Shown in pieces: positions 29,243 to 37,763 of a stretch of 37,943 nt of DNA. This DNA is from a virus. How positions within the stretch are numbered: position 1 is the stretch's first letter; each line of letters starts with the position of its first letter. The notes beneath the pieces were generated by a model that had not been told where the DNA came from, made no database searches, and saw only the letters and a program-made list of their open reading frames with translations. Both the position numbers and the translations under genes were made by a program. The stretch spans positions 1 to 37,943 of IMG/VR virus record IMGVR_UViG_3300025383_000050, one strand, 5' to 3'.

Positions 29243-29788
29243 ATGAGCCAGACCCCCAAAATCACAGTCCTGAATAGTGAAATCAAGCCCGGATACATTG
29301 GATTTACTCGCACCACAGGCGTTCTCGGTCGCCTAATCCAAACTGGTGAAAAACTAAAGTTCAAGGACGGCGAATACAACCACGCATTTGTCGTCGTCGC
29401 CGTCGGAACCAGCCCCGATGACGTATGGATTGTTCAGGCAACGCTGAAGGGTGTCGTCTTGTCGCACATGAGCGACCTGTATCCGACAACTAGTGAAATC
29501 CTTATTTGCCCTCCGTCGGCCACCGTTTCCCTCGACAGTGTGGTTGAGTTTGCCAACGCACAGGTAGGCGACCCCTACGGTCTTATGAGCGACATTTGCA
29601 TCGCCGTTGACATTCTTTCACCAGAGTGGTTTTGGTCGGTGCGTCGCAACGGAACGTGGATTTGCTCGGCACTCGCCGCAGAGGCACTTCGTTATGGTGG
29701 AATGCTAGAAAACTGGGGCGACATTTACACAGTCACGCCTACGCAACTAAAAAAGCGATTGGTTGCATCAGCACCGAAAACGGTCTAA
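29243..29788 (+). CDS. NlpC/P60-like (permuted papain fold) protein, 181 aa
   Basis: Residues 17-35 (GYIGFTRTTGVLGRLIQTG) begin the fold. His47 lies in YNHAFVVVA and Cys141 in WICSALAAEALRY. The order His before Cys marks the permuted YiiX-type of the NlpC/P60 superfamily. QVGDPYG at 107-113 and 'DIYTVTPTQLKKRL' at the end are usual for the family. Such proteins cleave amide bonds in peptidoglycan, lipids or proteins; in a phage this one could be an endolysin or tail-associated hydrolase. It is far from the holin-like gene at 24063, and it lacks a cell-wall-binding domain. The fold is well supported; the substrate is not known. Confidence 0.72.
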   Translation: MSQTPKITVLNSEIKPGYIGFTRTTGVLGRLIQTGEKLKFKDGEYNHAFVVVAVGTSPDDVWIVQATLKGVVLSHMSDLYPTTSEILICPPSATVSLDSVVEFANAQVGDPYGLMSDICIAVDILSPEWFWSVRRNGTWICSALAAEALRYGGMLENWGDIYTVTPTQLKKRLVASAPKTV

Positions 29789-30400: not shown

Positions 30401-30943
30401 ATGTCCGGTTTTCACCCCGATGAACTAAACCCCAAGTTGTCTCGCTACCCCGTAACAAAGGGTGACGTGCCGGGACACGAGTTTCATGGCAATCAGTACA
30501 CAACCGAAGAGCACCTTGCATACGATGCTATGGGGTTGGCTAACAAGAGCCTTCCCAATCTTGGGACTACCGCCGAACAGCCAACGCTCGGACACATCAA
30601 GGACAACGAAAAGGCGTATTACACCAAGATGGCGCAAGCGCACCGTGAAATTGCCGCTGGACACAAGATTGCTGGTATAAATGTGTGGAATAGACACCGC
30701 GACCCCTCAGTTTCTCATCGCCCGTCGGTGTCATACGCAAGTTCTCATCACTCGGCACAACTCAACCAAGATGCCGCCGATGCACACGACAAGGCAGCCG
30801 ACTTGTATCAAAAGATGGCAGACAAGGTGAGCACTCAAGATGGGCCTGACGAACTCACCAAGTTGGTTGCTCGTAGCCTGACCCTCAGTGCAGCAGTCGC
30901 AAGCAACAAAGCCGCAGGCGGCACCTCACCTTTGGTTGACTAA
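30401..30943 (+). CDS. FHGNQ-tagged protein A, 180 aa
   Basis: RBS GAAAGGA before ATG 30401. The N-terminus has F4-x-x-D7 and L9, then Y16-P-V, then KGDVPGHEFHGNQY at 20-33, a segment shared with the products at 30956 and 37763. After the tag, the sequence is helical and rich in His, Ala, Lys and Asp (MAQAHREIAAGHKIAG; DAADAHDKAADLYQKMADKV), with no catalytic motif. It is followed after 12 nt by tagged protein B. A short N-terminal motif kept while the body diverges suggests a targeting, packaging or processing signal. This is inference; no function is known to me. Confidence 0.78.
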   Translation: MSGFHPDELNPKLSRYPVTKGDVPGHEFHGNQYTTEEHLAYDAMGLANKSLPNLGTTAEQPTLGHIKDNEKAYYTKMAQAHREIAAGHKIAGINVWNRHRDPSVSHRPSVSYASSHHSAQLNQDAADAHDKAADLYQKMADKVSTQDGPDELTKLVARSLTLSAAVASNKAAGGTSPLVD

Positions 30944-30955
30944 AGGAAAACAATC

Positions 30956-31468
30956 ATGACCAACCCATTCTCTACTGACGCACTACTGAAATCAGTATCC
31001 AACTACCCCGTCGCAAAGGGCGATGTCACAGGACACCCCTTTCACGGAAATCAGTACGCCTCAAACCCCTTCAACAAGGACTTTGACCGTTTACGAGAAG
31101 AAGGCGCTGGCTACTCGGCTCGTGAGGCTGCCCGACGTGCTCGTGACCTTTTCCAGCACGGCTTGTCCACTCACGCACAAATCGCTAATGCCCACCGAGC
31201 GGCAGCCTTTGAGCACGGCATTGCTAGCCAAGTGCTGAAAAATGCTCTTGACAAAGAGACTAACCCCGAAAAGCGTGGCGTTCTGAAGGCGGCAATCGCA
31301 GCCCACGACCACGCTGCTGAAGTCCACAACTGGATTGCTACAAAGCAGGCGAACGAAATCTCTGGCCCCATTGCTCGTGACAACACCATGCACGCAGAAG
31401 GTGCCAGTCTGGTTGCCGAACGACTAGGTGCTGCCACGGGTGCCGACACGGGCGCAGAGTTCCGATAG
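30956..31468 (+). CDS. FHGNQ-tagged protein B, 170 aa
   Basis: RBS AAAGGAAAA before ATG 30956. F5-x-x-D8, L10 and Y17-P-V precede KGDVTGHPFHGNQY at 21-34. The body is again helical, Ala/His-rich (AHRAAAFEHGIASQVL; AAIAAHDHAAEVHNWIA) and differs in sequence from protein A. The tag is encoded by clearly different synonymous codons in the three genes, so conservation is at protein level. The proteasome-like gene starts 61 nt downstream, so both tagged proteins may be co-expressed with it. Confidence 0.78.
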   Translation: MTNPFSTDALLKSVSNYPVAKGDVTGHPFHGNQYASNPFNKDFDRLREEGAGYSAREAARRARDLFQHGLSTHAQIANAHRAAAFEHGIASQVLKNALDKETNPEKRGVLKAAIAAHDHAAEVHNWIATKQANEISGPIARDNTMHAEGASLVAERLGAATGADTGAEFR

Positions 31469-31500
31469 TCAAGTCGGGGCAAAATCCCTCAACTCTCGGT

Positions 31501-31522
31501 TAGTGAAATCCGCTAGTAGCCT
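31501..31522 (+). promoter_or_regulatory. TAGTGAAAT motif and -10 element before the Ntn hydrolase gene
   Basis: The intergenic 9-mer TAGTGAAAT (31501-31509) is followed by TAGCCT (31517-31522), which lies 6 nt before ATG 31529. The same TAGCCT-N6-ATG arrangement occurs at 32045. No good -35 is present, so the promoter call is weak, but the spacing suggests a leaderless transcript. Confidence 0.45.
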
Positions 31523-31528
31523 TGCGGT

Positions 31529-32017
31529 ATGACAACTATTGCCGCTTGGAAAGACCGCAAACAGGTATGGATGGCTGGCGACAGCGGTGCGTTTGACGAC
31601 GACACGGTAATCATTTCAGCAGAGCCAAAGGTTTGGAAAACACAAGACAGCCTCATTGGCGTGTCTGGCTCGTTTCGGATGATGGACTTACTGCGCAGTA
31701 ACAACATCAGCAACCCATACAAAATCCGTGACTTTCTCGTTTCCAAAGCAAACGACGTTGGGTTCCCGAACGACGGTTGGGGTGTTCTTGTTGCCGACCA
31801 CACGGGCATCTACGAAATTGGCTCGGACTTCGGCGTAGTGAAATCACGAGAGAACTATGGCGCAACCGGCGCAGGCGCACAAGGCGCACTTGCAGCACTT
31901 TACGCATTGGAAAAAGTCAAAGACATATCACCACAGCATCGTGTTGAGTGGGCAGTCGGCGCAACCATCGCACACTCCACGAACGCACGTCCGCCCGTCA
32001 AAGTGATTTCACTATAA
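31529..32017 (+). CDS. Proteasome-beta / HslV-like Ntn hydrolase, 162 aa
   Basis: After removal of Met, the protein begins TTIAAW, with Thr1, Asp17 in AGDSG and Lys33 in AEPKVW, exactly the proteasome-beta/HslV active-site numbering. GVSGSFRMMDLL gives the usual Gly-rich substrate-cleft segment, and GATGAGAQGALAALYAL corresponds to the late helix following 'G-G'. Length is like HslV (~175) rather than the 20S beta subunit. No HslU, Clp or other unfoldase is present, so it would act with a host partner, self-assemble, or act on small peptides. It sits between two FHGNQ-tagged proteins and an ABC-GNAT gene. The stop region contains the motif ATTTCACTA (32006-32014). Confidence 0.82.
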   Translation: MTTIAAWKDRKQVWMAGDSGAFDDDTVIISAEPKVWKTQDSLIGVSGSFRMMDLLRSNNISNPYKIRDFLVSKANDVGFPNDGWGVLVADHTGIYEIGSDFGVVKSRENYGATGAGAQGALAALYALEKVKDISPQHRVEWAVGATIAHSTNARPPVKVISL

Positions 32018-32050
32018 ACGCTTGACTACTGTAGTAAGGTTTGTTAGCCT
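32006..32050 (+). promoter_or_regulatory. Promoter TTGACT-17-TAGCCT with adjacent 9-mer, leaderless
   Basis: -35 TTGACT (32022-32027) and -10 TAGCCT (32045-32050), 17-bp spacer; the ATG at 32057 lies 6 nt beyond the -10, where transcription would start. The reverse 9-mer ATTTCACTA (32006-32014) is 7 bp upstream of the -35. No Shine-Dalgarno sequence is seen before ATG 32057, in keeping with a leaderless mRNA. Confidence 0.7.
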
Positions 32051-32056
32051 TAGCCA

Positions 32057-33184
32057 ATGACCAATCAACAGACATTTGAGTTGCAGACAACCGACGAGTG
32101 GTTGCCACTACAACGTTCCGCAACGCCGTTGGTTTCAGCACTGCAACTTGACGCAGTGACTATTGACGCTATCGCCCAGTTTGATTATCAGCCCCAAGAG
32201 GCGAAGTTCTACCCGTGGGTAATGCCACCACTACCAGCCGAGTTCGGCGTTGGTCTTATTGTCGGCGGTTCAGGCACGGGCAAGAGTGTTCTTCTCAAAG
32301 AGTTTGGTGAAATCTACGAGCCGGAATGGGGCAAGGACGTTTCGATTGCCGGTCATTTTCCCGATTACCAATGGGCTATGGAAGCGTTTTACGCCGTAGG
32401 TTTATCCTCTGTGCCGACGTGGACAAAGCCGTATCACGTTCTTTCCAATGGTGAAAAGTTTAGGGCAGACCTCGCACGGCAGGTAGGCGACAACGCCGTC
32501 ATTGACGAGTTCACCTCTGTCGTTGACCGCACCGTAGCAAAGGCAACGTCACGAACACTGCGCAAATACGTTGAGCAGAAAGAGGTGAAAAACCTCGTTC
32601 TTGCTTCGTGCCACCGAGACATTATTGAGTGGCTAGAGCCTGACTGGATTATTGACACCGACGCTGGAATGTATTGCCTACAGCCAAAGGAGTGCCTTCA
32701 TAGAGAACCGCTGGTGGCAGACATTTATCAAGTCAAACACACCATGTGGCCGTATTTCATGGAACACCACTACCTCACTTCAGGTCTTAATACCTCTGCC
32801 ACCTGTTTCGTCGCAATCGTCAATGGACAGCCAGCCGGTTTCAGCGCAATCCTCTACTTCCCATCAGGAACAATCCAAAACGCCTACCGTGAATCTCGCA
32901 TTGTGGTGAAACCAGACTTTCAGGGTCTTGGTCTTGGCACACGACTAAGCGACTGGGGCGCAAAGTATTACACCAACGCTGGCTATCGTTTCTTTGGTCG
33001 CACCGCACACGCACGTCTAGGCGAATACCGAGAGTTTTCACCACTGTGGCGAGCAACGAGTAGCAACAAGAAAGCCCGTCTTAGCAACGACCAGTTGCGC
33101 CAAAACGACATTGACCACTGGAGCCACAGCCGACGTTTCGGTTATTCGCACGAGTTTGTAGGTGAAATCCAAACTGGTGGGTAA
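32057..33184 (+). CDS. ABC-type ATPase fused to GNAT acetyltransferase, 375 aa
   Basis: Residues ~60-205 are an ABC ATPase: Walker A GGSGTGKS (70-77), an atypical signature VLSNGEKFRADLAR (128-141), Walker B NAVIDE (146-151) and a switch His in SCHRD (184-188). No membrane segment is present, so it is a soluble ABC protein, not a transporter. Residues ~220-350 are a GNAT domain with the acetyl-CoA loop RIVVKPDFQGLGLGTRL (281-297). Fusions of this kind occur in phages and bacteria, but I know of no established substrate. Expression from its own leaderless promoter suggests separate control. An acetyl-transfer reaction gated by ATP hydrolysis, perhaps on a nucleic acid or protein, is inference. 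Confidence 0.82.
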   Translation: MTNQQTFELQTTDEWLPLQRSATPLVSALQLDAVTIDAIAQFDYQPQEAKFYPWVMPPLPAEFGVGLIVGGSGTGKSVLLKEFGEIYEPEWGKDVSIAGHFPDYQWAMEAFYAVGLSSVPTWTKPYHVLSNGEKFRADLARQVGDNAVIDEFTSVVDRTVAKATSRTLRKYVEQKEVKNLVLASCHRDIIEWLEPDWIIDTDAGMYCLQPKECLHREPLVADIYQVKHTMWPYFMEHHYLTSGLNTSATCFVAIVNGQPAGFSAILYFPSGTIQNAYRESRIVVKPDFQGLGLGTRLSDWGAKYYTNAGYRFFGRTAHARLGEYREFSPLWRATSSNKKARLSNDQLRQNDIDHWSHSRRFGYSHEFVGEIQTGG

Positions 33185-33188
33185 TACT

Positions 33189-33569
33189 GTGAGCGACCCT
33201 ATGGCTAACTCATACACCCTCACTTACGACGTGCGCCCCGACTTCACGCTCAACAAAGAGCGTTCGGTTCACCACATGGTGCGAGCCAAGATTACAAAAG
33301 AGTGGCGTTCAGCGTTCTGCGAGTTGGCGCAAGAGGCAATGATGCCACACATGGAACAGGTGGAAATCACCATCCAGCCCTACGTTCTTTCGGCAAAGTA
33401 TCGCCAAGACGTAGGTGCGTGTTTCCCCCAAGCCAAAGCGGCTATTGACGGGCTGGTTGATGCAGGCGTTCTGATTGACGACAACGCAAAGGTTGTAGTG
33501 AAATTGACCTTCCTTGCCCCCGTGTTCGGCAGAGATGGACTGGAAATGACAATAGTTGAGGTAGAATAA
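33189..33569 (+). CDS. RusA-like Holliday junction resolvase, 126 aa
   Basis: GTG 33189 follows a GGTGG RBS at suitable distance and comes 4 nt after the previous stop; ATG 33201 is an alternative. The C-terminal half has the RusA core: YRQDVGACFPQAKAAIDGLVDAGVL in parts, with D-P-x-x-K-x-x-x-D-G-L and IDDNAKVVV (the metal-binding acidic pair), then 'GLEMTIVEVE' as the last strand. Actinophage RusA proteins often read 'R-P-D-x-x-N-P-x-P-x-x-K-A-A-I-D-G-L-V-D-A-G-V-L-x-D-D'. Here the first metal-binding region is 'QDVGACFPQAK', so the middle Asp-Asn is replaced and activity may be altered. It would resolve branched DNA made by recombination. Confidence 0.72.
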   Translation: MSDPMANSYTLTYDVRPDFTLNKERSVHHMVRAKITKEWRSAFCELAQEAMMPHMEQVEITIQPYVLSAKYRQDVGACFPQAKAAIDGLVDAGVLIDDNAKVVVKLTFLAPVFGRDGLEMTIVEVE

Positions 33570-33641
33570 TTATCCACAGTGTTATGCACAACCTGTGTGA
33601 AAGGCCGAAGTATCTGTATTTCACTATCCCCTGTTGATAAA
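33570..33641. promoter_or_regulatory. DnaA-box pair, candidate replication control region
   Basis: TTATCCACA (33570-33578) and TTATGCACA (33582-33590) both match the DnaA box TTATNCACA exactly and lie in direct orientation 12 bp apart. A weaker inverted match, TGTTGATAA (33632-33640), follows. The 9-mer ATTTCACTA (33618-33626) lies within. The region is intergenic. It may be an origin or a DnaA-controlled promoter for the small gene at 33651. Confidence 0.6.
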
Positions 33642-33650
33642 CTACCCTCT

Positions 33651-33788
33651 ATGGACAAAAGTTCTATCAACGGAAATGACGACGAAAACGTAGTTGTAAG
33701 CCTTGACTACGAATTTGGAAACCACGCTGACCCTAGTGAAATCGCAGCCGCTAAGTTGCGCCATCCGTCAAGCCAGCCAAAGAACTAA
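33651..33788 (+). CDS. Small acidic protein of unknown function, 45 aa
   Basis: I choose ATG 33651 rather than an upstream in-frame start at 33579, which would run through the DnaA-box region. The product (start MDKSSINGNDDENVVVSL) is acidic with a central 'VVVSLDYEF' strand and no recognisable domain. There is no clear RBS; TAAACT at 33638-33643 lies 7 nt before the ATG, so it may be leaderless. The 9-mer TAGTGAAAT at 33734-33742 encodes its Ser-Glu-Ile. Whether it is expressed is uncertain. Confidence 0.5.
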   Translation: MDKSSINGNDDENVVVSLDYEFGNHADPSEIAAAKLRHPSSQPKN

Positions 33789-33836
33789 CACCACCTCAAC
33801 TAACGGCACTACACTATCTACGAAAGGATTTTCCAA

Positions 33837-34100
33837 ATGCCACTAGACCCAATCAACCCGTTGCCCGACCTAGAGCCAATGGACGCTGCCGAGAGCGCAG
33901 AAGTCGCAGGGTTGCTTCAGCACATCAAGGACATCTGCAAGCAGATGCGTGACCACGAAAAGAAGGTCATTGAGTTAGGGCTGGAACGTCGTCAGACCGT
34001 CACCCGTCTGCGTGAAAACGGCGTGACGTGGCGCAAGATTGCTCAGTGGGCTGGAACGACCGACCAAGCACTTTACAAACACCACAATCGGGGCAAGTAA
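33837..34100 (+). CDS. Small HTH DNA-binding protein, 87 aa
   Basis: RBS GAAAGGA before ATG 33837. An acidic N-terminus is followed by a long helix (HIKDICKQMRDHEKKVIELG). The C-terminal ~28 residues form a helix-turn-helix: RLRENGVTWRKIAQWAGTT then DQALYKH, the 'G-v-(t/s)w--IA---G-s-qa-yk-h' pattern seen in small actinophage DNA-binding proteins and sigma region-4-like HTHs. It sits between the DnaA-box region and the helicase gene. It is the clearest candidate in the window for a regulator that could read the TAGTGAAAT motif, but that link is only a guess. Confidence 0.75.
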   Translation: MPLDPINPLPDLEPMDAAESAEVAGLLQHIKDICKQMRDHEKKVIELGLERRQTVTRLRENGVTWRKIAQWAGTTDQALYKHHNRGK

Positions 34101-34103
34101 TAC

Positions 34104-34132
34104 TTGACGGGGCTACAGTTTCCCCGTATAAT
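34104..34132 (+). promoter_or_regulatory. Promoter TTGACG-17-TATAAT, leaderless
   Basis: -35 TTGACG (34104-34109) and a consensus -10 TATAAT (34127-34132) are 17 bp apart. The ATG at 34141 begins 8 nt after the -10, at the expected transcription start, and has no Shine-Dalgarno sequence. It is the strongest promoter of the right half. Confidence 0.85.
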
Positions 34133-34140
34133 AGAGCCTT

Positions 34141-36606
34141 ATGTCTACACCTGATGAAACCCTAATAAAAGCGTTATTAGCGGTCGCAAAAAACTGCGAC
34201 GGGGCTAACACGAACGACGGAAAAGGGTTCAGCGGAACGGACAGCAAGTTTGGCAAGCAGTTGGCTGGTCTGCCCCCAGAGGCGTGGACAGAGCCACTAC
34301 AGCGTCAAACGTGGGAAATGCTACACAAGTATCGTGGGCAAATCACAGCCGCCGGTCTTGATTACGATTCAATCCCAGAGCCACCAGACGGCAAGAAGTC
34401 AAAGGACATACGAGCCATTGACCTAAAGGCTGGCAAGGTGATGGTCTTTATCCCTTACGGCGACATTGCCTATCCCAAGAGCGCACTAAGCGCAATATGG
34501 AATCGTGACCTACGAGGCTGGCAAGTATCACCAAGCAAGTATGGCGTGGTTCAGGCGTGGGCGAAAAGGTTTGATGTTCCAATCACCGACCGTGCCAAAG
34601 CCGTTCTAGAGCAAGCCGAGCCACCGTCACAGCCAGACTACATGGGGACTGTGACATTGGAACACGGACACCTCGTAGTGAAGTTTGATTACAACCCATC
34701 ACTGCTGGACGCTATCCGCACTATCCCCAGCCGACGTTGGAACGCCGAGCATAAAGAGTGGATACTGCCCAAAGAGAGTATCGGTTCGGTTCGCAAAATC
34801 GCTAACGAGTTCAACCTGTTTATGTCGCAAGACGTAAAGGGTCTGCCCGAAATGGATGTCCAAGACGGTGTGCTGATTCGTGTGACGAACGGACATTTCG
34901 CCCTATCGTTCAATTACGACCAAGACGTAATTAGCGAAGTCCGTCAAATGCCCGGTGCGATTTGGAACGCCACTAATAGGGCATGGCTGGTTCCTATTGA
35001 GGCGAGCGACGAGGTGTTGGCGTTCGTTCAGAATCACGGCGCAGTTATCACCCCCGAAGCCCGACAACTTCTCAACGACGCATCCTCTATGCGTGAAATC
35101 ATTGACGCTAGTGCCGCCAAAGACGCAGAAATCACCATACCCGGATTTGGCTCCGAGAAACTACAACTGTTCCCATTCCAGCGAGCAGGCGTGGCGTATG
35201 CGCTAAAGCGTATGGGGTTTGAGTGGCAGGAGAGCAAGTGGGTTCGCACAAACCACATTGACGGCGGTGTGCTGATTGGCGACGAGATGGGGCTAGGAAA
35301 ATCGTGTCAGGGTCTAGCGTTGCTGAAAGCAACCGAGTCGTTTCCAGCCGTAATCGTATGCCCAGCGAGCCTGAAACTCAACTGGAAGCGTGAGGCGGAA
35401 CAGTGGATACCGGGCGTTCAGGTGAAAGTTCTATCAGGAACGAGTGGCAACCTACCTGACGCTGATATTTACGTTATCAACTACGACGTTCTAGACCATT
35501 GGGTTCAGAAGTTCAACAACGTTCAGGGCATTGTTCTAGACGAAAGCCACTACGTCAAGAACGGTCGCACAATCCGTTCTAAAGCCTCTATACAACTCTC
35601 TGACCGTGTTGCCGACGGCGGTATTCGTGTCTGCCTATCGGGAACACCTATCGTCAATCAACCGCTAGAAATTATGACGCAGTTGCGGATTATCTATCGC
35701 CTTGACGAACTGTTTGGCGGTGCGACACAGTTTAGAAACACCTACGGGCGAGCGAGCAAGAAGTCGTTGGCTCTACTCAATCGCAAACTACGTTCGTCGT
35801 GCTACGTTCGTCGGCGCAAGACGGAAGTGCTGACCGAGTTGCCACCTAAGCGTTGGTCGCACGTCATTATCGAGGGCGACCCGAAGGTGATGACCGAGTA
35901 TCGCAAGGCAGAGGCGGACATTGTTCGCTACCTATCGGAACTGGCGATGAAACTGGCATTGGAAAGCGGTGCTGATACAGAGGAAGCCCAGAACGAGGCG
36001 TGGCAACGTGCGCTACGGGCTAGGGCGGCAGAACACCTAGTCTCTATCGCCACCCTAAAGCAACTAGCCGCTAAGGCAAAGATGCAAGCGGCGAAAGAGT
36101 GGATGGACGACTTTCTGGCGCAGGATAAAAAACTCGTGGTGTTCGGTTGGCACAAGAGCGTCGTGGATATGGTCGCAGACGAGTTCTCAAACGGCGTGAA
36201 GATTCAGGGCGGTATCACCATTGAGAAGCGTCAGGCGTATGTCGACCTATTCCAAAACTCTGACGAGCAAAAGGTGATTTCTTGCCAGATAAAAGCGGCT
36301 GGCGTTGGCTTGACTTTGACCGCCGCATCCGACGTGCTGTTCATTGAGCAAGGCTGGACACCAGCCGAGATGGAGCAAGCCGTCGACCGTTGCCACCGTA
36401 TCGGACAACAGGACAGTGTGACCGGCTGGCTTATGCTCACGGCGAACACCATTGACGAGGACATAGCGGCTCTCATTGACGCAAAACGGGCGGTGGTGAA
36501 CCGAGCAATTGACGGCGCACCAGAGAGCGACGACGAGGAAGAAACCTCAATGGTTGGTGACCTGTTGGTTGCCCTAGCCGAGCGTGGTCTGGCGCAGGCT
36601 AGTTAG
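34141..36606 (+). CDS. SNF2-family helicase with three HARP-like repeats, 821 aa
   Basis: The N-terminal third contains three HARP-like repeats: around residues 100-130 (VMVFIPYGD ... SAIWNRDLRGWQVS), 180-212 (VKFDYNPSLLDAI ... RRWNAEHKEWILP) and 253-286 (FALSFNYDQDVI ... AIWNATNRAWLVP). HARP domains make SMARCAL1 an annealing helicase that recognises forks. The SNF2 core follows: motif I GDEMGLGKS (380-388), DESH (467-470), SGTPI (500-504), the AAGVGLTLTAASDVLF strand and QAVDRCHRIGQQDSV (746-760). An acidic tail ends the protein. It is probably involved in phage DNA fork remodelling, and has its own strong leaderless promoter. It meets the next gene tail-to-tail over 8 bp. Confidence 0.92.
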   Translation: MSTPDETLIKALLAVAKNCDGANTNDGKGFSGTDSKFGKQLAGLPPEAWTEPLQRQTWEMLHKYRGQITAAGLDYDSIPEPPDGKKSKDIRAIDLKAGKVMVFIPYGDIAYPKSALSAIWNRDLRGWQVSPSKYGVVQAWAKRFDVPITDRAKAVLEQAEPPSQPDYMGTVTLEHGHLVVKFDYNPSLLDAIRTIPSRRWNAEHKEWILPKESIGSVRKIANEFNLFMSQDVKGLPEMDVQDGVLIRVTNGHFALSFNYDQDVISEVRQMPGAIWNATNRAWLVPIEASDEVLAFVQNHGAVITPEARQLLNDASSMREIIDASAAKDAEITIPGFGSEKLQLFPFQRAGVAYALKRMGFEWQESKWVRTNHIDGGVLIGDEMGLGKSCQGLALLKATESFPAVIVCPASLKLNWKREAEQWIPGVQVKVLSGTSGNLPDADIYVINYDVLDHWVQKFNNVQGIVLDESHYVKNGRTIRSKASIQLSDRVADGGIRVCLSGTPIVNQPLEIMTQLRIIYRLDELFGGATQFRNTYGRASKKSLALLNRKLRSSCYVRRRKTEVLTELPPKRWSHVIIEGDPKVMTEYRKAEADIVRYLSELAMKLALESGADTEEAQNEAWQRALRARAAEHLVSIATLKQLAAKAKMQAAKEWMDDFLAQDKKLVVFGWHKSVVDMVADEFSNGVKIQGGITIEKRQAYVDLFQNSDEQKVISCQIKAAGVGLTLTAASDVLFIEQGWTPAEMEQAVDRCHRIGQQDSVTGWLMLTANTIDEDIAALIDAKRAVVNRAIDGAPESDDEEETSMVGDLLVALAERGLAQAS

Positions 36607-37168
36607 TCTGGCGAGATTTCCAAATCGCAGTTGCATCGGCGGTGGGTTTCAGCACGGAAATCGGCAGGTTGAGGCAGTCAGTCCAAAACTTAGTGCCGTT
36701 GCTAGTGTCGGTTTCACCAGCCTTCCAAATCTTGCCGTTGTTCTCAACAATATGACGATTGGCTACCCCGATTAGGTGGGCGTGACCGTAGCCCCTAGCA
36801 AAGCGTTCAGCAGGGTAATCACGATTGCGCTGGAGGCTCACAAAGCCCCAGTAGGCGACGTTCTGGTGTTCGTGGTTATACATCGGGATGGAAGCGTCAT
36901 AGGACAACTTAGGTATCACCGTGCGGTCTTTGGTCTTGATGTCCAAACGACCCGACCCGACGATTGTGATGTCGTGCGTCGTAGTGAAATCGTCTGTGTA
37001 GGCGACACCCTGTTCGTCTAAATACTCCATGAACACGATTTCACCAAGAACGCCAATGTAGTTGGCCTGCTCGCCACGATAACTGCCCTTGTAAATGGGC
37101 ATCTTGCTTACGGCTTCCTCAGCCCGAAGGTAGTGGTGTTCTTTGAGTGCGATGGAAACGTAAGCCAC
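36599..37168 (-). CDS. PD-(D/E)XK nuclease-like protein, 189 aa
   Basis: Leftward gene converging on the helicase; the overlap CTAGTTAG (36599-36606) holds both stops. The frame can start at TTG 37174, but a -10 TAGTAT lies so that GTG 37168 would be the first transcribed codon, so I choose the latter. Residues ~38-80 have GVLGEIVFMEYLDE (Glu43), HDITI (Asp66) and RLDIKTKD (Asp76-x-Lys78), the E...D...D-x-K core of restriction-type PD-(D/E)XK folds. The rest is without recognised motif. Such proteins cleave or process DNA; a role with the HARP-SNF2 helicase is suggested by position only. No methyltransferase is nearby. Confidence 0.68.
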   Translation of the reverse strand: MAYVSIALKEHHYLRAEEAVSKMPIYKGSYRGEQANYIGVLGEIVFMEYLDEQGVAYTDDFTTTHDITIVGSGRLDIKTKDRTVIPKLSYDASIPMYNHEHQNVAYWGFVSLQRNRDYPAERFARGYGHAHLIGVANRHIVENNGKIWKAGETDTSNGTKFWTDCLNLPISVLKPTADATAIWKSRQTN

Positions 37169-37174
37169 CGGCAA

Positions 37175-37215
37175 ATACTACGGCTGTAATTACGCCGTGT
37201 CCACTCTTTTCACTA
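37175..37215 (-). promoter_or_regulatory. Leftward promoter TGGACA-17-TAGTAT with adjacent 9-mer variant
   Basis: On the minus strand, -35 TGGACA (37198-37203) and -10 TAGTAT (37175-37180) have a 17-bp spacer. GTG 37168 lies 6 nt downstream of the -10 (leaderless). TAGTGAAAA (37207-37215, minus strand) ends 3 bp before the -35, an arrangement like that at 37882-37898. The spacer also contains the palindrome GTAATTAC. Confidence 0.65.
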
Positions 37216-37220
37216 CAGAG

Positions 37221-37763
37221 TTAGATGCCCTCAGCGTGGTTGCCAACGCCAGCGGCATTTTTGGCGTTCTCAACTGCCTTTTCAGCAGCATCAACCCTGT
37301 CTTGCGCCTCGCTCAAACGCTGACCTGTGGCGTGTGCGGAAATAATGCCATTTACGTCGTCGTCGCCCCGTCGGTTTTCTAGCACTTGGGTATCGTGGGC
37401 GACTGCTCGCAGGTTGTTGTGTGCCATAGCGGCATTCTCGTGAGCGTTAGCAACGTCACGCAGTTTTCCAGCCATTGCGCCGGTAGCCTTGTTCGCCAAT
37501 GCGTGATACTGCTGGGCTTCTTGGTGGTGCATATCCGTCTGCCGTTGTGCCCGTGGTTCCACCGAGCGAGCCGCCGCACCGATACTTGTTGCGCCCCAGC
37601 GGAATGGGTCAACGAAACGACCCGGAATTGGCGCACGACCGCCACCGCCGATTCCACCAGAGAACTGGTTGCCGTGAAAAGAGTGTCCTGCCACGTCACC
37701 TTTGAGGATGGCGTGTGCCACAGCAAACGTGGGGGCTAAATCGTCGGTGTGGAACGAGGTCAT
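37221..37763 (-). CDS. FHGNQ-tagged protein C, 180 aa
   Basis: Starts at ATG 37763 on the minus strand; no RBS is seen, but TAAATT lies 6 nt upstream, so it may be leaderless. The N-terminus has F4-x-x-D7 and L9, then LKGDVAGHSFHGNQF at 20-34, the tag of the products at 30401 and 30956. A Gly-rich linker follows, then helices rich in Ala, His, Asn and Gln (HHQEAQQYHALANKATGAMAG; VANAHENAAMAHNNLRAVAHD), ending with a heptad-like coiled coil (RVDAAEKAVENAKN). It is on the opposite strand and 6 kb from the other two, so the tag has spread within this genome. Confidence 0.78.
   Translation of the reverse strand: MTSFHTDDLAPTFAVAHAILKGDVAGHSFHGNQFSGGIGGGGRAPIPGRFVDPFRWGATSIGAAARSVEPRAQRQTDMHHQEAQQYHALANKATGAMAGKLRDVANAHENAAMAHNNLRAVAHDTQVLENRRGDDDVNGIISAHATGQRLSEAQDRVDAAEKAVENAKNAAGVGNHAEGI

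Follow-up and report, generated by a model that had tools for sequence, protein, structure and literature searches.

To our knowledge, the choice of the proteins that phages load into the head and inject into the host is understood in only a few cases, namely T4, P1, N4, and the giant phages. In T4, the internal proteins IPI-III and Alt carry a capsid-targeting sequence (CTS), a propeptide of 10–20 residues that targets them to the prohead and is removed by gp21 (PMC5694885). In P1, the N-terminal 30 residues of DarB, an injected antirestriction protein, are enough to bring a reporter to the capsid, and processing is assumed for DarA (PMC9024508). The polyvalent proteins of phages and conjugative elements are giant fusions of ART, PBECR, InPase, DarA, MuF, and portal domains, for which packaging and injection are presumed (Iyer et al. 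2017; PMC5512222). Finally, in MuF polymorphic toxins, a phage head protein is fused to variable effector domains (PMC5576092). Comparative sequence analysis of a phage contig and its relatives now suggests that a conserved peptide, referred to here as the tag, is an undescribed label that marks proteins for loading into the phage head and for delivery to the bacterium.

The window, i.e., the whole stretch of viral DNA that we analyzed (37,943 nucleotides), encodes three tagged proteins. Protein A (180 aa; positions 30401–30943, plus strand) consists of an N-terminal helix, the tag, and an Ala/His-rich helical body. Its tag, KGDVPGHEFHGNQY (30458–30499, plus strand), is preceded by a candidate targeting helix, FHPDELNPKLSRYPVT (30410–30457, plus strand). 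Protein B (170 aa; 30956–31468, plus strand) and protein C (180 aa; 37221–37763, minus strand) both combine an N-terminal helix and the tag with a helical bundle. In B, residues 7–16 are predicted to be helical within the pre-tag stretch FSTDALLKSVSNYPVA (30968–31015, plus strand), and the tag itself, KGDVTGHPFHGNQY (31016–31057, plus strand), is predicted to be disordered (AlphaFold2 pLDDT of ~50 or lower). The tag of C, KGDVAGHSFHGNQF (37662–37703, minus strand), is also predicted to be disordered and follows the pre-tag stretch FHTDDLAPTFAVAHAIL (37704–37754, minus strand), for which a helix is predicted, with low confidence, at residues 13–20. As reported in the initial annotation, KGDVxGHxFHGNQ(Y/F) is found within residues 20–34 of all three proteins and is encoded by a different set of synonymous codons in each. 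Apart from these three, six-frame translation of the window yielded no tag; the phage has a fourth tagged gene (L153), which is located beyond the right end of the window, and protein A is also present in L155/L156.

The genes for A and B are flanked by those for an HslV-like Ntn peptidase (31529–32017; phrog_1040, E = 2.7e-19) and a C92 papain-like peptidase (29243–29788; sub-threshold match), surroundings that have similar counterparts in the records G014, G009, and G003. The possibility that one of these adjoining peptidases is the tag protease is unsupported, as HslV is unmatched in the array-bearing records G002, G004 (partial), and G007. The gene at 32057–33184 encodes an ATPase-like N-terminal half joined to a GNAT acetyltransferase half (phrog_11143, E = 1.5e-94).

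The bodies behind the three tags had been taken to be unrelated. BLASTP alignments are significant over residues 1–36 only (A–B, E = 9e-11; A–C, E = 2e-10; B–C, E = 5e-07), and no Pfam or NCBIfam family is matched above cut-off by any of the three, with weak matches to PHROGs; thus, A, B, and C do not align over their full length as plain paralogs of a known family. However, a profile built from seed L161 recovered B (E = 9.5e-26) and C (E = 1.6e-28), compared to 6.6e-05 for the best reversed-sequence match. By this measure, B and C have homologous helical bodies, linked via intermediates and detectable as such by profile alone, and the body of A, with a borderline profile match, is probably homologous to them. 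An earlier estimate, which placed A and C at ~3e-4 in the profile of B, was dropped, since reversed sequences reached 2e-07. As modeled by AlphaFold2, B and C form similar helical bundles, and in both the tag, mostly with pLDDT <55, lies between a weak N-terminal helix and the confident bundle. At E ≤ 0.001, Foldseek retrieved nothing similar to the fold of B from the PDB or from viral models; generic four-helix bundles alone were retrieved, designed di-iron ones among them, and hence no function was assigned from the fold. Accordingly, B and C cannot be counted as having unrelated bodies, although elsewhere the tag is indeed found on truly unrelated ones. The similarities between the three proteins might be attributed to plain paralogy within one helical family, with the N-terminus shared by common ancestry, and the homology of B and C and the likeness of their models would fit such a scenario. 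We consider it highly improbable, given that many unrelated bodies bear the same tag, often along with the same helix, and that the conservation of the tag far exceeds that of the bodies. As the whole explanation, paralogy of A, B, and C is ruled out by the tag on unrelated bodies.

A search of viral contigs with a degenerate DNA pattern for KGDxxGHxFxGNQ returned at least 120 stretches, many of them multi-copy. The tag is present in at least 320 copies in at least 234 non-redundant phage ORFs; the ORF count includes a few with the second tag (see below) alone, the copies are non-independent, since many loci are related, and viral contigs are fragments. In 20 whole records, the GHxFxGNQ DNA pattern had 1–25 matches per record, whereas the reversed pattern had 0 in all 20, which rules out chance as the origin of the tag. 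The largest numbers of tag copies were found in G002 (69 kb), with 25, followed by G013 (24), G009 (22), and G003 (21). Among ~85,000 cellular species genomes, the strict pattern had no match and a looser pattern had 28, several of which correspond to prophage-like genes. Prophages of Ideonella livida TBM-1 and Hydromonas duriensis contain tagged genes of the PBECR1 and DarA types (L131 and L148). Short-query tblastn against 50,697 deposited phages yielded a sole match, Xanthomonas phage Rb1, in a gene annotated as “internal head protein” and encoding InPase and DarA_N domains. Thus, the initial impression that other phage proteins contain comparable peptides was borne out for environmental phages but, with the exception of Rb1, not for deposited ones. 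There was no tag match in a plasmid collection and no convincing match in a defence-system library, and an exact-string search of one open library retrieved no literature describing either tag. It appears that no curated family and none of the papers searched describes the tag.

The genomic setting is best seen in G014 (85 kb), a syntenic relative of the window. Here, an array of ~17 mostly tagged genes is located between the genes for the portal (phrog_113, E = 1.8e-80) and the major capsid protein (phrog_1005, E = 1.5e-96). The array includes a two-tag protein whose second unit is a homolog of B with a 70% identical body, as well as a full-length relative of C that carries the variant tag KYETAGHAFNGNQH and is 54% identical where aligned. 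The tag arrays of G009 and G003 adjoin scaffold and capsid genes, and those of G002 and G007 are in the head gene module as well. Three records contain both genes; in these, the interval from portal to major capsid gene contains 54 of the 59 tags in 37% of the length. The head module of the window itself is not seen, because the contig starts at the tail genes; A and B are encoded outside such a module, as are some tag copies elsewhere, including one tagged gene of G014 at the place matching A/B, beside an HslV-like gene. The scaffold and major capsid genes adjoining the arrays are devoid of the tag; their products are the usual substrates of head proteases. A gene for a DNA-binding protein (L168:8142–8600, corresponding to G014 68142–68600; phrog_3636; Dps-like by eye) is also found inside the tagged head array.

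In addition, the tag is fused to head proteins. It follows head maturation proteases in L009, L033, and L010, a ClpP-type head protease in L143, MuF in L023, the portal in L031, Portal_Mu in L151 (E = 8e-34), and DarA_N in L148, and occurs together with DarA_C in L136. In a 2646-residue ORF of G002, tags separate the portal domain, the MuF domain, and later units. Homologs ~75% identical to the L009 protease lack the tag insert, indicating that the protease does not need the tag; a requirement of the tag for head-protease function is thereby ruled out. The initial annotation had proposed a capsid-targeting or ejection signal or a processing site. The clustering in the head module, the fusions to head proteins and effectors, and the unrelated bodies all fit this proposal; packaging, cleavage, and ejection are what we infer from the observed distribution, position, conservation, tag swapping, and body types. 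Given the 54 of 59 tags between portal and capsid genes and the fusions to portal, MuF, protease, and DarA-type proteins, we consider a role of the tag in head cargo to be the probable one.

Tag-like peptides are also encountered in bacterial proteins. Firmicutes proteins of ~160–170 aa (L150:5710–6183, L141:4967–5485, and L139:3602–4120) have an MGxPxGHPFFGNQYTxGGY-like peptide at the extreme N-terminus, besides a hydrophobic segment and a Zn-ribbon, and L150 adjoins apparent conjugation genes. Gly/Arg-rich flavobacterial proteins (Kaistella, Chryseobacterium; L128:1467–2324, L149, L125, L130, L145) contain GHPFFGNQYTSGRG in a low-complexity region.

Since no head exists in the case of these Firmicutes and flavobacterial proteins, their GHPFFGNQYT-like peptides count against head cargo. 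They would instead be compatible with a tag that has nothing to do with the virion and whose binding partner is a host factor or a cellular process, its head-module location reflecting late expression only, and the position of A and B outside the head module points the same way. The fusion of the tag to portal, MuF, head protease, and DarA is difficult to reconcile with such a role, as is the lack of the strict pattern in ~85,000 cellular species genomes, and we regard it as unlikely.

The bodies carried behind the tag are diverse and include ADP-ribosyltransferases (ADPrib_exo_Tox), DRAT, DUF3626, HipA/PI3K-like kinases, pentapeptide repeats, RelA/SpoT-like proteins, and the PBECR1 nuclease; an Ala/His-rich pattern is present in 63 of 211 tagged ORFs. 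In L028 and other giant ORFs with tags, domains such as ADPrib_exo_Tox and kinase-like ones are combined in one chain, in contrast to A, B, and C, each of which has a single body. For one RelA/SpoT-like tagged body (L119:7532–8263), which is homologous to bodies behind the second tag, the C-terminal portion of the XopAD/skwp type III effector model gave a partial match (E = 4e-31, scoring far below the cut-off of that model). One N-terminally tagged ORF (alignment A2) matches an intein splicing domain (PF14890, E = 9e-09).

The consensus of the tag is [VIL]xKGDxxGHxFxGNQ[YWH]TxG, followed by a Gly/Ser/Ala-rich run, with the residues G, H, F, G, N, and Q being essentially invariant. In 271 copies, the codons of the invariant residues have ~0 bits of variation at positions 1 and 2 but 0.8–1.96 bits at position 3. 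With the third positions near saturation and the first two fixed, selection acts on the peptide rather than on the DNA, and a DNA-level repeat or selfish insert is ruled out. The motif spans ~17 residues and displays internal covariation: D at −3 is paired with H or R at +4 at a ratio of 253:1, as opposed to 19:27 in the absence of D (Fisher 5e-25, which is no true probability, since the loci are related). In the alleles KYE..FNGNQ and GSGA..F(N/E/Y)GNQ, both sides change together. The covariation rule was followed by 46 newly fetched tags (D with H/R in 26 of 26, KYE with N in 3 of 3).

A second tag, with the consensus VxKHGxHDQxTHGxWAxG, was found in at least 199 copies in at least 139 ORFs. 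Relatives of the contigs bearing the first tag have KHxxHDQxTHGRRKTxG at the same joints; for instance, QEYKRRGGTYxKPVxKGDxPGHEFRGNQ in one protein corresponds to QEYKRRGGKYKxVAKGGVGLAKHVEHDQSTHGRRK in another, and YENVKKGDYVGHPFRGNQ to YENVKKHASHDQKTHGRRK. The bodies joined to the second tag belong to the same classes, including MuF, XkdF-type head protease, zeta toxin, ADP-ribosyltransferase, PARP, and GNAT. Among the 116 first-tag loci listed, 6 also have the second tag, each with one copy of the first; thus, each phage uses mostly one of the two dialects. The swapping of both tag types at homologous joints, the free recombination of bodies and tags, and the clean insertion of tag plus body in L009 relative to its homologs might indicate that the tag is a spacer that only marks points of module exchange, akin to the VENN-type boundary of contact-dependent toxins. 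However, the nearly saturated third codon positions and invariant residues bespeak selection for the peptide and not for DNA identity, and the presence of the tag at the N-terminus of stand-alone proteins needs another reason; exchange alone strikes us as a rather unlikely explanation.

Tags are located either at the N-terminus of small proteins or between the domains of giant ones, with up to 8 copies in one reading frame; internal copies outnumber N-terminal ones (188 vs 116). The stretches preceding N-terminal tags show the signatures FxxDxL, EIxxWV, or LxPxW. This helix signature accompanies 68 of the 116 N-terminal copies but only 10 of the 188 internal ones, whereas the tag is equally conserved at both kinds of site. 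A helix signature that is mainly N-terminal and a tag that is conserved everywhere point to one address per polypeptide and one tag per unit. In the G014 array, some genes have the helix signature without an N-terminal tag. At least 201 homologous pairs link a body that follows a stand-alone N-terminal tag in one phage to its counterpart after an internal tag in another, and the alignment often starts directly after the tag.

We therefore envisage a head-cargo system of uncultured tailed phages, the unit of which would consist of the tag, a flexible linker, and a body, with stand-alone units usually having an N-terminal amphipathic helix too and other units being chained in one polypeptide. 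Cargo would enter the procapsid by means of the N-terminal helix or by fusion to portal, MuF, or protease. The tag at each joint is probably recognized within the procapsid, where, as our first choice, a head-located protease would cut at the tag and release the body from helix, carrier, or neighbor. The bodies would then be ejected together with the DNA; some would be effectors (ADP-ribosyltransferase, kinase, RelA/SpoT-like, nuclease), and others, like A, B, and C, small helical-bundle proteins of unassigned activity. Cutting at the tag is favored by the presence of one helix per polypeptide and one conserved tag per unit, even behind proteins already in the head; against it counts that known prohead cleavage motifs are shorter and less fold-like, and we regard cutting as plausible, at somewhat less than even confidence. 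Alternatively, the motif might fold on a partner inside the head (scaffold, portal, or a dedicated adaptor) and load or hold the cargo uncut, the chained units being multivalent. The long, information-rich motif, its absence from scaffold and capsid proteins, the −3/+4 covariation, which was upheld in the 46 new sequences and suggests a compact bound shape, and the near-exclusive dialect of each phage, as expected for a co-evolving receptor, all speak for such docking. Conversely, docking leaves it unexplained why tags are fully conserved right behind portal, MuF, and protease domains, and why internal tags are conserved as strongly as N-terminal ones. Docking is possible, if on the unlikely side, and we lean toward processing.

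A broader, tentative interpretation is that the tags constitute a head-cargo code common to many uncultured phages, in which the dialects GHxFxGNQ and HDQxTHG and the sub-alleles KGD, KYE, and GSGA would be read in the procapsid by a co-evolving phage factor, such that interchangeable effector units could be loaded, separated, and injected. If true, this would represent a general, swappable, previously undescribed format of protein delivery. With a tag marking hundreds of head-linked effector units, injected proteins, many of them of unknown function, would become predictable from sequence alone, and the two interchangeable dialects offer a natural route to the factor that reads the tag.

In comparison with the described systems, the tag is used far beyond MuF, and the MuF toxin paper mentions no boundary motif or linker (PMC5576092). 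Giant tagged ORFs resemble polyvalent proteins in joining several unrelated enzymatic domains in one chain, which, judging by gene position, may be packaged and injected. They differ in that the tagged units share one separator peptide and that many units are small separate genes; in the polyvalent-protein text searched, neither “linker” nor “GNQ” was matched, and no such separator was found (PMC5512222). The likeness to the P1 Dar system consists in the DarA_N/DarA_C domains that accompany the tag in L148, L136, and Rb1; none of A, B, and C matches Pfam above cut-off, and P1 phage records were not matched in the tag searches (deposited phages, short-query tblastn). Beyond phages, the tag invites comparison with the cargo-loading peptides of encapsulins and the repeat motifs of the carboxysome protein CsoS2, in which a short conserved motif with a flexible linker loads cargo into a protein shell. 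This is an analogy only, as shell, motif, and position differ. For the T4 CTS, no sequence match to the tag was established. In both cases, a short N-terminal element is common to otherwise different proteins, for which we infer a head location in the tagged set, and the tagged genes are in the head assembly module (54 of 59 tags in three records), with A and B of the window outside it. Distinct from the CTS, the tagged phages have a separate 17-residue motif after the helix, in two dialects, which also occurs inside chains, and there more often than at the N-terminus (188 vs 116 copies).
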